Shown here piece by piece: positions 3,316 through 9,760 of a stretch of 64,000 nt of DNA (position 1 is the first letter of the stretch; each line of letters starts with the position of its first letter). The translations under genes were made by a program, and so were the position numbers. The notes below the pieces were generated by a model. That model had not been told where the DNA came from, searched no databases, and saw nothing but the letters and a program-made list of their open reading frames with translations. The stretch comes from Actinomyces urogenitalis DSM 15434 (GTDB lineage: Bacteria; Actinomycetota; Actinomycetes; Actinomycetales; Actinomycetaceae): NCBI RefSeq assembly GCF_000159035.1, contig NZ_DS999576.1, forward strand, positions 33,148-97,147, written 5' to 3'.

Positions 3316-3788
3316 GGAGAGGAGAGCCCGTTGAGATTGATTTCCGCGCCGTCTACGCCCGTGAGGCTAAGTGCCTGGAGGAGGCGTTAAGGGCCTACCA
3401 GGCCGCCACTGTGGACACCCTTCCGCGAGACGGCGAACCGACGCCGTTGCCAGCGTGGGCCACCCGACTAGAGAGCCTGGACCGGCAAGCGCTCGCGGAG
3501 GTTAACGCGACCCTGGCCATGGGGGAGCGCACCGGCTACCTGTCGGGCTGGCAGGACGGTGCACGTACCGAGGGGGCGACACAGCGTCGTCTAGGTCGCG
3601 TGGAGGGGCGGTGCGAGTTGGCCGGTGAACTGGTCGACGCCTCAAGCATCTACCTCACCGAGCACGCCCGTGCCCTGGCGTCTGACCTTGCTGCAACGAC
3701 GTCGTTCGCAGACCTGTGTGAGCGTCGTGGTGAGCGGGAGCGGGCCAGCCGAGCACGCGCCGTCCTGGCTGAGAGGGGGATCGCATGA
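3312..3788 (+). CDS. Hypothetical helical protein
   Basis: 158 residues from GTG 3312, which overlaps the stop of the preceding gene (GTGA); GGAGGCGGAG lies just upstream. An earlier in-frame start at 3279 would overlap more and has no ribosome site. The protein is Ala/Glu/Arg-rich and almost entirely helical. No known domain is recognised. Its stop overlaps the ATPase start, so it is coupled to the DUF3631 gene and may be its partner; that is inference from position. Confidence 0.6.
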   Translation: MRRGEPVEIDFRAVYAREAKCLEEALRAYQAATVDTLPRDGEPTPLPAWATRLESLDRQALAEVNATLAMGERTGYLSGWQDGARTEGATQRRLGRVEGRCELAGELVDASSIYLTEHARALASDLAATTSFADLCERRGERERASRARAVLAERGIA

Positions 3789-5158
3789 CCCCCATGCAGG
3801 AGGTTAGAGGAGAGGGCGCCGAGGGCTGGAGCCTGGCAGAGGTGCTAGACAGGCTCAACGGCTGGTTCGCTCGCTTCATCTGTACCACGACGCCCGATGA
3901 CGTGGACCTGCTGACGCTGTGGACGGCACACACTCACGTATGCCTCCAGACGCACACCACTCCGCGACTCATCCTTGACTCTCTGATGCCAGGCTCAGGC
4001 AAAACGACAGTGCTGGATCATCTCAACCGTTTGGCGTTCAGGCCGGTACTAGCCGCCTCATTGAGTTCACCAGCACTGCTTGTCAGGCTACTGAAGGACG
4101 AGCCCCGCACAATCCTGATCGACGAGGTTGACCGCACACTCAACCCGAAAGAGGAGGGGACTAAGGATCTGCTCGCGGTGCTTAACTCCGGCTACCGGGT
4201 CGGTGGGAGCCGTCCGGTCCTTACCCCGGTCAAGGGCGGGGACTGGGAGCCGGTGGAGATGTCAACCTATGGGCCTGTGGTGATGGCGGGCAACATGCCT
4301 AGCCTTCCCGATGACACCCGCAGCCGGTCCATCAGGGTGCTTCTGATGCGCGACGACGACGGCGCGGCTGAGGACTCGGACTGGGAGGAGATCGAGCCTG
4401 AGGCACAAGCCTTGGCGCGAGACCTGGCAGCCGCGCTGGAGCAGTGCCGAGACCAGGTTGCTGCCTCACGGCCCGTCCTACCCACGCAGTGCACCGGACG
4501 TATGAAGGAGGTCTGGAGGCCCTTGGCGCGTGTCGCTGACGTGGCAGGAGGCCGCTGGCCTGACACCGTGCTCCACCTGTACGAGAGACATGCCGAGGAG
4601 GTCGCGGCCGAGATCGCCGAAGGCGTCGCCAACCGGTCTCCCGCCGTGGTCCTCATCAGTGACCTTGCGGAGGTCTGGGACCCCTCAGAGCCCTTCCTGC
4701 CCACGGCTGACATCGTGGCCAGGCTCAAGGCCCACAACCCTGGCTACTGGTCCGCTGCCAGTGCCTACGGTGCGGACGTCAACGGCAAGAGGATCAGCAA
4801 CCTTCTGAACCAGGGTGCCAAGATCAGGTCTCAGAAGGACTCTCGCGACCGCCGAGGCTACCGTCGTGAGGACTTCCTGAGAGTGTGGAGACAGGTAGGA
4901 GCACACCCCTCAGGGGAACCGTCGAACCCGTCGCACCTGTCGGACCCGTCGGAGACCAGCGACCAGCCACCGACGGTTGCGACAGGTCAGACGCTTACGA
5001 CGGATGCGGAGACACCCCCCAAGGAGGTCGCCGCGCCTGGATGCCCGCACGGCGCGCCGACACCCCGCCTCTGCCTGGAGTGCCAGCCACACGCAGGTGC
5101 GGACGACATGGGCACACCCGACATGCTCGGCCTACTGGAGGATGGTGAAGCAGCATGA
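3785..5158 (+). CDS. DUF3631-type P-loop ATPase
   Basis: 457 residues. The N-terminal half has a P-loop, PGSGKTT near residue 71, and an acidic Walker-B-like strand, TILIDEVDRTL near 112. Next comes a sensor-like segment, VVMAGNMPSLPDDTRSRSI. This is the pattern of DUF3631 proteins, which in actinobacterial phages and islands accompany or replace primase/helicase functions. The C-terminal 90 residues are Ser/Pro/Thr-rich with CPHG and CLEC, a possible small zinc site. ATG 3785 overlaps the previous stop. It is the probable replication or mobilisation ATPase of the element; substrate and partner are unknown. Confidence 0.8.
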   Translation: MTPMQEVRGEGAEGWSLAEVLDRLNGWFARFICTTTPDDVDLLTLWTAHTHVCLQTHTTPRLILDSLMPGSGKTTVLDHLNRLAFRPVLAASLSSPALLVRLLKDEPRTILIDEVDRTLNPKEEGTKDLLAVLNSGYRVGGSRPVLTPVKGGDWEPVEMSTYGPVVMAGNMPSLPDDTRSRSIRVLLMRDDDGAAEDSDWEEIEPEAQALARDLAAALEQCRDQVAASRPVLPTQCTGRMKEVWRPLARVADVAGGRWPDTVLHLYERHAEEVAAEIAEGVANRSPAVVLISDLAEVWDPSEPFLPTADIVARLKAHNPGYWSAASAYGADVNGKRISNLLNQGAKIRSQKDSRDRRGYRREDFLRVWRQVGAHPSGEPSNPSHLSDPSETSDQPPTVATGQTLTTDAETPPKEVAAPGCPHGAPTPRLCLECQPHAGADDMGTPDMLGLLEDGEAA

Positions 5159-5655: not shown

Positions 5656-5690
5656 GGTGGCCCCGTGACCAGACCGGTTGCGGGGCCACC
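5656..5690 (+). terminator. Hairpin, copy 1 of a paired structure
   Basis: A 10-bp perfect stem (GGTGGCCCCG with CGGGGCCACC) has a 15-nt loop containing GACC and GGTT, which can pair further. It sits 10 nt after the operon's last stop, so it is a likely terminator. A second copy with compensated base changes is at 6820-6854. The gap from 5691 to 5943 has no gene; it holds a nine-G run at 5853-5861. Confidence 0.65.
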
Positions 5691-5943
5691 TCCTCATTTG
5701 TGCTGAGGGGGTCCATGCTCTCGACACCCCAGGGGGAGGGATTGAACGGCGCTGTGCGCGGACCGCCGGGGAGAGGCAGAAAGTACGTGAGGGGTTCAAA
5801 GATTCACGCCCTCGCGCTCGCGGAGCAGGGGCTGGGGGTGAGGCGTGCCCCAGGGGGGGGGTTGTTGCTGATGGAGGGCACGCACTGATCGCGTACCCCT
5901 GTTGGCGAGCCGGTGGAGAAAAACGGCGGGGAGAGATCACGCT

Positions 5944-6498
5944 ATGCCGCCGGGCCAGCGAGCCGGGGTGGGGGAGGGGGATGCCCCCAGGTCGATGCGT
6001 CTGTCTCGTGGGGAGCGTCGGGAGATGGTCGCGATGCTCTCGTCCACCGGCATGTCCACCCGCGCCATCGCACCCGTGGTTGGGGTGAGTCACATGACTG
6101 CATCTAATGACCTGAATGCAGGTGTAAAGACCTTTACACCTGCACCTTCCTCCACAGCAGGTGATGCAAATGCATCACCTGGGCCGTCAGCCGCCAGGGG
6201 TCTCACGAATTCTACTGTCTCAAACGAGACAGTAGAACTATCAACCAATACTTCGGGGCCAACTTCTGAGGAGTCGGTGACCGGGCTCAACGGCAAGACC
6301 TACGCCCGGTCAGCAAGGACAGTTGCCAACGATGCTTCGGCATCTACTGAGCAATTTTGCTCAGTAGAGCAGGGCCCCACAGCCCCAGAGGCCGCATCAC
6401 AAGACATCAAGGCAGGTGTCAGAAATCTGACACCTGAGCCGTCAGCCACCACCCCGGTAACAGATGAGGCCCCGGCCGGGTCCGTGCACTCAGGGTGA
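5944..6498 (+). CDS. HTH protein with five palindromic segments
   Basis: 184 residues from ATG 5944, with GGGGAGAG upstream; ATG 5995 is an alternative. Residues 18-56 (LSRGERREMVAML, then MSTRAIAPVVGVSHMTASNDL) form a helix-turn-helix seen in ParB-like and phage regulators. GLNGKTYARS near residue 116 matches the G-x-[DN]-GKTY tail of that family. Between and after these, DNA encoding five 9-residue segments is perfectly palindromic. Three encode AGVKTFTPA, AGDANASPG and AGVRNLTPE; two encode STVSNETVE and STEQFCSVE. The usual longer N-terminal domain of relatives is missing. It is probably a regulator; the palindromes may be its targets or RNA hairpins. Confidence 0.65.
   Translation: MPPGQRAGVGEGDAPRSMRLSRGERREMVAMLSSTGMSTRAIAPVVGVSHMTASNDLNAGVKTFTPAPSSTAGDANASPGPSAARGLTNSTVSNETVELSTNTSGPTSEESVTGLNGKTYARSARTVANDASASTEQFCSVEQGPTAPEAASQDIKAGVRNLTPEPSATTPVTDEAPAGSVHSG
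6117..6144. repeat. Palindrome P1 (family A)
   Basis: 13-bp perfect arms, TGCAGGTGTAAAG, with a 2-nt spacer (AC). Outer CAGGTG/CACCTG is shared with P2 and P5; the inner bases differ but stay complementary. Confidence 0.95.
6158..6181. repeat. Palindrome P2 (family A)
   Basis: 11-bp perfect arms, CAGGTGATGCA, spacer AA. Same outer hexamer as P1 and P5 and the same codon phase. Confidence 0.95.
6210..6237. repeat. Palindrome P3 (family B)
   Basis: 12-bp perfect arms, TTCTACTGTCTC, spacer AAAC. Outer TCTACTG/CAGTAGA is shared with P4. Confidence 0.95.
6343..6368. repeat. Palindrome P4 (family B)
   Basis: 12-bp perfect arms, TCTACTGAGCAA, spacer TT. Same outer heptamer and codon phase as P3, with different but complementary inner bases. 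Confidence 0.95.
6413..6436. repeat. Palindrome P5 (family A)
   Basis: 11-bp perfect arms, CAGGTGTCAGA, spacer AA. It lies 20 codons before the stop of the HTH gene. Confidence 0.95.
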
Positions 6499-6819
6499 CT
6501 CTCAAACCCGTACAGAATCTGAGCGCCTATACGCGGAGCGATGCGAAGGGTGAGGGGGTGGGGGTGCCTCCCCCCTCCCGTGGCCACCCTGAAACCGCTG
6601 GATAGCAGCCCCGGCACTACGTGCGTCGCGAACCTTCTGTTTTTTGGGCCTCTAGGACGCTGCTGGCAGGCCCGTAGGGGCTCCGGCACCCGCCGCCGCG
6701 CCCCCCGGAGGGAGGGCGTGGTCTCGTGCCCGTACAGGGCGATTGCGAGGGTTGTTTCGTTACAGCCTCACCGTCGTCTCACCCTTGAGGGGGCGGGACA
6801 CAAAGGGAGGGAAAAGGGC

Positions 6820-8106: not shown

Positions 8107-8123
8107 TGGTGGAGATGGGGGGA
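8107..8123. repeat. attR core repeat within ssrA
   Basis: This is the right copy of the 17-bp att core. It encodes the CCA-terminated acceptor end of tmRNA, so integration left the RNA gene intact. Confidence 0.85.
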
Positions 8124-8477
8124 ATCGAACCCCCGTCCGACGGTGGTGCAACAGGACTTCTCCGGGTGCAGTTCGCTAGCGATTTTCTCAGCCCCGGCGT
8201 CTCACGCGAACAAGGACGCCGACGGGCTCAGTCACCTAAAAGTCCCGAAGCCCCTGATGACGAAGGACCTCAGCAGTGGCTCCCTAGATGACGCCAGGAA
8301 CCGGGGCGGAAGCAGTCCCCGGGCTGACGGACTTCGAGGCTCGCTCAGGCGGCGAGGGCGAAGTCGGTGCGAGTGTTATCGGCACCTATTGGTTCGCACA
8401 GAGCGTTGACGAGATGACTGTGCATCCTCGACCCGCTTCTCCTGAACCCACGACCGTCGTCGAAACCGATCATCCCC
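8107..8477 (-). ncRNA. ssrA: tmRNA
   Basis: The 371-nt RNA rescues stalled ribosomes by trans-translation. The 5' end GGGGATGATCGGTTTCGAC and the 3' end GGTTCGATTCCCCCCATCTCCACCA halves form the tRNA-like domain, with the CCA encoded. The tag frame runs from 8383 to 8348 and reads ADNTRTDFALAA, then TGA at 8347-8345; the C-terminal LAA is the ClpXP degron. The 3' end is the att core of the neighbouring element. The promoter lies between 8478 and 8670, where no gene is seen. Confidence 0.97.
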
Positions 8478-9670: not shown

Positions 9671-9698
9671 GTGCCTGCGCCGTCGTTTCTGCGACAAC

Positions 9699-9741
9699 GG
9701 GTGCGGCCGGGGAGGACGTACTGTCCTCCCCGGCCGCACCC
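9699..9741. terminator. Bidirectional terminator
   Basis: A 19-bp perfect GC-rich stem with a 5-nt loop lies between the convergent reductase and permease genes. Confidence 0.85.
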
Positions 9742-9760
9742 GCGTCAGGCGGCGCCGGTC

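Follow-up and report, generated by a model that had tools for sequence, protein, structure and literature searches.

Palindromes inside an Actinomyces helix-turn-helix gene as probable docking sites of a phage DNA-binding protein family

Five palindromes lie within one helix-turn-helix (HTH) gene of the window, the 64,000-nucleotide stretch of Actinomyces urogenitalis DSM 15434 DNA analyzed here. On sequence comparison, their most likely role is that of docking sites for phage DNA-binding proteins of one family, whose genes normally carry one such site each. Across this family the inner bases of the palindrome follow the recognition helix encoded by the same gene, so that the palindrome looks like a dimer-binding site for its own gene's protein. 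We are fairly confident in an interpretation that combines DNA sites for HTH dimers, a split module resembling ParB/parS, and a shortened gene in the window that carries a five-site array.

The original prediction reported five perfect inverted repeats with 11-13-bp arms and 2-4-nt spacers within 320 bp of one HTH gene, and all five are present where it placed them. P1 (6117-6144) has 13-bp arms and a 2-nt spacer, with the core CAGGTG-TAAAG-AC-CTTTA-CACCTG. It is followed by P2 (6158-6181; 11-bp arms, 2-nt spacer), P3 (6210-6237; 12-bp arms, 4-nt spacer), P4 (6343-6368; 12-bp arms, 2-nt spacer) and P5 (6413-6436; 11-bp arms, 2-nt spacer), none of which is assigned a strand. The proposed division into family A (P1, P2 and P5, outer CAGGTG/CACCTG) and family B (P3 and P4, outer TCTACTG/CAGTAGA) was reproduced, as were the inner arms TAAAG, ATGCA, TCTC(A), AGCAA and TCAGA of P1 to P5 and their single codon phase in a common 24-bp frame. 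In this frame the palindromes lie at +70, +109, +163, +295 and +364 from the GMSTRAI motif of the HTH, and the fifth inner pair of P3 is a mismatch. Inverted repeats with arms of at least 11 bp and spacers of at most 4 nt did not arise in any of 1000 first-order Markov sequences modeled on the segment, against the five observed. Over 40 nt, the unit of P2 and that of P5 are 75% identical and represent copies of one another, with four of the five inner bases altered in both arms. This pair was also picked up as a direct repeat, and three of the five palindromes were recovered when 12-bp arms were required.

The HTH open reading frame runs on the forward strand from an ATG at 5944 to 6498 (longest form from a TTG at 5902). 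It matches phrog_29861 (E 1.1e-10) and profile A3 (E 1.3e-25), and its match to Pfam HTH_23 (E 0.0028, 17.9 bits) lies under the cut-off of 24.6. The gene is a shortened relative of phrog_29861, without the N- and C-terminal domains present in four aligned relatives. Its HTH, GMSTRAI...SHMTASND, is encoded at 6049-6111 (forward strand), with the recognition helix (residues 13-20) at 6088-6111 as positioned through the structure model of the relative L061. A VTGLNGKTY motif follows at 6277-6303 (forward strand), and its counterpart forms a beta-hairpin in that model.

The gene sits in a 7.7-kb island at the tmRNA gene (8107-8477, reverse strand; ARAGORN), the presumed integration target. The att core TGGTGGAGATGGGGGGA lies at the outer end of the island (434-450) and recurs as a 17-bp direct repeat at the 3' end of the tmRNA gene (8107-8123), neither copy being assigned a strand. 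The island encodes an integrase (539-1972, forward; PF00589, E 6.7e-15) and a DUF3631 protein (3785-5158, forward; PF12307, E 7.1e-19). Its integrase and att repeats make it a candidate phage satellite or integrative island. An intergenic repeat of about 600 bp is present at two places in this genome, one of them within the island. There, its left half (5659-5948, forward) is 86-87% identical to G000:C67:387888-388174 and its right half (6475-6793, forward) 94% identical to G000:C67:388169-388487. The copy at G000:C67:387888-388487 is uninterrupted, and by eye the open reading frame adjoining it resembles a formate/nitrite transporter. It lacks the piece of about 526 bp (5949-6474, forward) that carries the DNA-binding domain and the five palindromes, so this piece was either inserted in the window or lost from the other copy. 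Because GCCGGG occurs at both 5949-5954 and 6475-6480, the edges of the piece are uncertain by 6 bp. Among 48 other genomes of the genus, the repeat gave short weak matches in G008 only. Elsewhere in the window, a perfect inverted repeat with 20-bp arms (9698-9742) lies between two convergent open reading frames and is probably a terminator.

The starting relatives came from two other genomes of the order and from phages PFR1/PFR2 and vB_MoxS-R1, and a palindrome follows the HTH in all five. Further loci were drawn from a viral-contig scan (68), a genome scan (27), a phage collection (two M. abscessus prophages) and a plasmid collection (L124). A motif and length filter passed 100 rows, which gave 83 distinct genes once 17 duplicates, identical to another row in their first 20 HTH residues and in their site, were removed (L005 is represented by the identical L032). 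L012, L013, L107 and L122 gave no row through this filter, and L109-L111 and L125 repeat known records. Two early weak matches, L002 and L009, were rejected as family genes with a site, and the plasmid homologue L008 has no site.

A site was called where at least 8 of 11 pairs matched and at least one TG/CA mark was present. By this rule 76 of the 83 genes, from actinobacterial phages and prophages, carry an embedded site within the gene just after the HTH, with the pattern CNNS-TG-N12/13-CA-SNNG; two doubtful sites with an odd offset or weak pairing (L040 and L096) were retained in the 76. The site lies 64-76 nt from the start of GMSTRAI in 69 of the 76 (full range 60-97) and measures 24 bp in 60 (with a 16-bp TG-N12-CA palindrome at its center) and 25 bp in 16 (N13). 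The left T is found in 72 and the left G in all 76, TG/CA being favored in site picking. A separate scan that required at least 9 of 11 pairs and ran without the TG/CA marks found palindromes in 56 of 63 distinct genes, against 19 of 750 equal-size control scans elsewhere in the same genes. The codon phase of the site is 1, 0 and 2 in 52, 23 and 1 genes, respectively. Seven genes lack a site by the rule; among these, L105 and L124 hold palindromes of different spacing or place, with a perfect one at +106 in L124.

L124 with its displaced single site apart, four of the 83 genes have a further site (TG/CA and at least 10 of 11 pairs) within the gene or close to it. Outside the window, extra sites with other inner bases occur in L004 (three sites of two kinds), L025 (three kinds) and L092 (a second site before the HTH). 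Multi-site arrays are rare, yet they recur. In Galactobacter caseinivorans (L101, 4073 and 4972), we also observed tandem family HTH stretches, each followed by a different palindrome, and the first frame is broken.

In 24 of 25 records we found exactly one CAGGTGN12-13CACCTG, and none of the 25 matched the reversed-pattern control; these records were hand-chosen, mostly for having a CAGGTG-type site, may be fragments, and were counted for the CAGGTG outer sequence only. Dispersed partition or stoperator sites are disfavored by this count. The same count bears on plain transcriptional autoregulation, in which a dimer bound within its own gene blocks RNA polymerase. A single site within a gene of an operon would suit such a roadblock, but no second CAGGTG-type site, for instance near a promoter, accompanies it in those 24 records. 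A roadblock also needs no near-fixed distance after the HTH motif, and this distance is kept although the N-domains have a median identity of 39%. We therefore regard autoregulation as distinctly unlikely. The L026 record (G603) differs from the other 24 in having three near-identical sites of one kind, at 868, 1369 and 33524.

Wider searches added few members. Three of 396 genomes of the phylum matched phrog_29861, the window's own among them. PDB sequence searches returned nothing useful, and single-protein scans little beyond the query itself. In a CTACTG pattern scan, three of the records were already known and the other two were new contigs, where we found no family HTH gene beside the palindromes. 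The CAGGTG pattern matched at least 235 of 297 genomes of the order, and among the matches listed most were non-palindromic inside. Several single loci showed other features. L118 and L121 (IMGVR_UViG_3300044728_000078) have several CTACTGAGTC..GACTCAGTAG palindromes that, judged by the open reading frames, apparently lie near the starts of structural genes and not within an HTH gene, and these look like a different, repeated element. In L007, an inverted CACCTG..CAGGTG with perfect arms (19-47) lies directly before the R1 integrase gene. L082 belongs to the family although its contig is assigned to a Dehalococcoidia MAG, possibly through a binning error or transfer.

We compared the recognition helices with the inner bases of the sites, numbering the HTH from the G of GMSTRAI (residue 0; helix residues 13-20) and the inner bases i1 to i5 from TG to the center. 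Helix and inner bases were correlated in a partial Mantel test with N-domain distance removed (r 0.456; none of 5000 permutations as high), and N-domain distance itself was barely related to the inner bases (r 0.04). Individual residues followed simple rules. Gln14 went with A at i1 (16/16 versus 0/60 others), Asp, Asn or His at residue 13 with G at i3 (25/26 versus 0/50), and Arg19 with C at i4 (37/43 versus 5/33). The top mutual-information z-scores linked residue 14 to i1, residue 13 to i3 and residues 15 and 14 to i2, followed by residue 19 to i4, and residues 13, 14, 15 and 19 showed no such link with the outer bases. HTH residues 8-10, outside the helix, were associated with the outer bases (z up to 7.4), probably through shared descent, which may likewise account for part of any signal.

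The rules for residues 13, 14 and 19 persisted when the sets were thinned so that N-domain identity did not exceed 50% (8/8 versus 0/13, 7/7 versus 0/14 and 12/14 versus 1/8), and were weaker at 45% (P 0.015 for residue 19). A rule linking Asn14 to T at i1 failed to hold. At 50% N-domain identity or less, the gene with the nearest helix gave 3.76 of the five inner bases correctly, compared with 1.99 for the nearest N-domain neighbor and 1.73 for the average gene. Recurrent pairings include HHDT with TCGGA (three times), SVGT or SVGQ with TTCA(G/A) (five), DQKT with AGG(A/C) (five) and SKDT-like helices with TCTCA (five). There are counterexamples: L069 (SVGT) and L078 and L094 (SKDT, for which TCTCA was expected) have no site by the rule, and L063 (SHMT) carries TAACA while the window gene and L077 carry TAAAG. 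A motif further along the protein seems to govern the outer bases: SLDGRxRP goes with outer CG(T/A)C (5/5 versus 0/71, in about two lineages). The multi-site protein of L004 (1285-2427) has a second HTH further on with the helix SQRT, the kind paired with AGCAA in L024; no AGCAA site is listed in the multi-site gene of L004. Protein and target lie within about 100 bp of one gene, and each sequenced member records both a helix and its presumed site. An HTH recognition code may therefore be learnable from sequence, and it is directly testable.

These associations also bear on the level at which the palindromes are selected. Between genes with less than 50% N-domain identity, the identity of the site-encoded peptides is 0.21; in the same gene pairs the recognition helix is 38% identical and the first 13 HTH residues 72%, the latter partly because the search required GMSTRAI. 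In 45 of the 60 24-bp sites, a selection biased to better ones, 93.5% of pairing cells were paired, and changes on both sides numbered 114 against a shuffled mean of 31. One of the five measures, further pair types, was not above shuffles (258/500). When all 76 sites are taken together, 753 of the 836 pairs are matched. The DNA palindrome is thus kept rather than the peptide, the opposite of the outcome that the original prediction named as refuting it, conserved peptides without palindromes.

The original prediction had read the five repeats as selection for pairing rather than for one sequence, through RNA hairpins, cruciform sites or operators read inside the gene. Complementary change is indeed strong, as hairpins or cruciforms selected for pairing would lead one to expect, but we read it instead as selection for a symmetric site, with the protein dictating the sequence of each half. 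Mismatches of the G.U type are not commoner than A.C (10 versus 18; binomial P 0.18) and so give no sign of RNA pairing. Residues of the recognition helix predict the inner bases, which hairpins and cruciforms alike leave unexplained. The near-constant length of 24-25 bp, itself part of site picking, and the position-6 G in 76 of 76 sites also count against pairing, and we consider both structures highly improbable. Operators read inside the gene, one of the three options in the original prediction, come closest to our reading, and its interpretation is partly supported.

The L061 model (mean pLDDT 87, pTM 0.52) has a helical N-domain with the HTH and a C-terminal helical hairpin. Between these well-predicted parts, a poorly predicted linker of low pLDDT starts where the palindrome is coded, and a small hairpin forms at the LDGKTY-like motif. 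The HTH model aligned with Spo0J over 45 residues (1vz0_H; Z 5.9, rmsd 1.9). Unrelated rows scored equally well (Z 6.4 to 5.7), and a Z below 8 may reflect a common arrangement only. Foldseek gave no significant match for it (best E 0.32). Among the proteins scanned, the site-reading HTH did not match Pfam HTH_ParB, and a weak match to that family (E 0.032) was confined to the second HTH of L004.

A conserved gene lies directly downstream in 31 of 82 loci and was not found there in 51, some of which are cut short. In comparisons of the model of one such protein, where the same caution on Z applies, ParB, PadC and KorB make up the first six rows (Z 6.6 to 6.0), followed by sulfiredoxin and ParB-N, and the first other kind scores 4.6. 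The match to ParB 7bnr (Z 6.6) has an rmsd of 2.9 over 87 residues, and the best Foldseek E is 0.0058. In two prophages, the depositors label the gene at this place a ParB-like nuclease. The modeled partner is therefore a probable ParB-fold protein. No ParA is annotated in two whole phage records, where many genes are labeled hypothetical.

The TG-N12-CA spacing of the 24-bp family sites is that of consensus parS, TGTTTCAC-GTGAAACA, and Noc Gln173 prefers half-site adenine 1 (PMC7383237). When the residues are aligned by eye, residue 173 reads a base that, in parS numbering, is one position farther outward than the one linked here to residue 14. We gave no weight to a likeness between the L045 site core and parS, which could arise by chance among 76 sites. 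From the common spacing, the Noc Gln173 preference and the ParB-like fold of the partner, we read the module as ParB/parS-like in its working rather than as a proven member. The comparison points to an actinobacterial phage module of HTH protein, embedded parS-like site and ParB-fold partner; our literature search, directed at split ParB proteins and at sites embedded in the gene of their reader, found no report of this module.

We propose that each palindrome is a double-stranded DNA site that would be bound by a dimer of a family HTH protein. The site would lie within the gene of its reader, where the flexible linker that directly follows the recognition helix is encoded, and protein and target would thus travel and change together. 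The recognition helix would set the five inner bases of each half-site, and the later LDGKTY-like hairpin may help set the outer bases. The module most likely works as a split ParB/parS-like system, in which the HTH protein would mark the site and the neighboring ParB-fold protein would act on phage DNA from it, whether for partition, for loading or to control early genes. The window gene is a shortened relative that retains the DNA-binding part only, with a five-site array in an integrated island; the partner profile had no match anywhere in the window.

A replication origin inside an initiator gene is one alternative, in which the HTH protein would open the DNA at its own palindrome. In PFR2 and R1, the gene comes after a repressor-like small gene at the start of a rightward operon, which suggests a place like that of lambda O, and in the window the island encodes the DUF3631 protein upstream. 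The cumulative GC skew of PFR2 peaks 1.1 kb from the site (24573 versus 25682), at a change in gene direction; an origin usually lies at the cumulative minimum. The R1 skew shows no turn at the site. Nearly all genes have a single site and no row of iterons, and the flanks are not AT-rich (mean GC 0.62-0.71 in 25-bp bins, and 0.54 at the site only). The neighbor's modeled fold is ParB-like, unlike a helicase loader. The lambda ori does lie within the gene of its binder O, which binds the ori iterons (PMC4488673, PMC7466680). On balance we think an origin unlikely.

A self-immunity tag like that of BstA/aba would have the HTH protein block foreign phages while the embedded site exempts its own DNA, and extra sites in the window would then exempt it from several systems. 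The logic is the same as that of BstA/aba, a short in-locus DNA element with cognate specificity (PMC8585504), and specificity is strongly diversified in our family. Gene order, however, suggests an early-operon gene running away from the repressor rather than one expressed in lysogeny, and we consider this reading very unlikely.

Five different inner sequences within one gene are still the unusual part. P1 occupies the usual place of the relatives' single site, and its TAAAG is shared with L077, whose helix start, SHMT, is that of the window gene. The ATGCA of P2 also occurs in L006, L029 and L102 (helix DQ[SA]T or NQAT), and the TCTC(A) of P3 in L004, L018, L061, L090 and L099 (helix [SG]KD[TS]). 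The AGCAA of P4 is shared with a single other gene, L024 (helix SQRT). The TCAGA of P5 was unmatched among the other 75 genes with a site, and IMG/VR held no exact copy of P5. Four of the five inner 5-mers are thus present among the 45 5-mers of the 75 other genes (P = 0.006 for at least four matches at a random match rate of 0.19). As P1 is the gene's own site, the support for sites of other phages' proteins is three of four, which is modest. Three readings remain for the array: sites for the proteins of other phages, one tolerant protein, or debris.

In the first, the array would be polyspecific, with one island displaying sites for DNA-binding proteins of several phage types. It would ride on the ParB-like or replication machinery of an entering phage or draw its protein away, and new specificities would come from duplicated site units whose two arms then change in concert. 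Partial precedents exist: parS sites of SGI1 hijack the IncC ParABS system (PMC10954446), and decoy origins stop phage lambda (PMC4488673). A search of 48 further genomes of the genus with profile A3 found no other family member, and hence no sign there of the presumed target phages. We offer this as a tentative idea that is probably wrong; if true, a mixed five-site island would offer a single mobile element a new means of handling several phages. Debris of a phage gene without a present role, a reading that concerns the window copy only, is also somewhat unlikely in our view. The N-domain, C-domain and partner are all missing, and the paralogous repeat lacks the piece of about 526 bp, but the five palindromes are intact, the frame is open, and the copied unit P2/P5 has changed in both arms.

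Four known systems are closest to what we describe. As in SGI1, the window would be an integrated element with sites for another element's DNA-binding protein. SGI1 differs in having two nearly alike sites (repeats DR1 and DR2) and one kind of helper (PMC10954446), whereas the window has five unlike sites in one gene and no known helper. In BstA/aba, a prophage protein predicted to have a DNA-binding domain also has a short cognate DNA element in its locus, but aba extends across the start of the gene and carries direct repeats at its ends (PMC8585504), while our family has a palindrome after the HTH. Like lambda O/ori, the family has its sites in the middle of the gene of the predicted reader; it differs in having mostly one palindrome instead of iterons, no AT-rich flank and a ParB-fold neighbor. 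ParB-parS and Noc-NBS likewise combine a TG-N12-CA palindrome read by an HTH (predicted here), few specificity residues and a protein of ParB-like fold (probable here, and encoded nearby). In our phages, by contrast, the two whole records lack an annotated ParA and the sites vary between phages, and the HTH and ParB-fold parts are divided between two genes, with the site inside the HTH gene.
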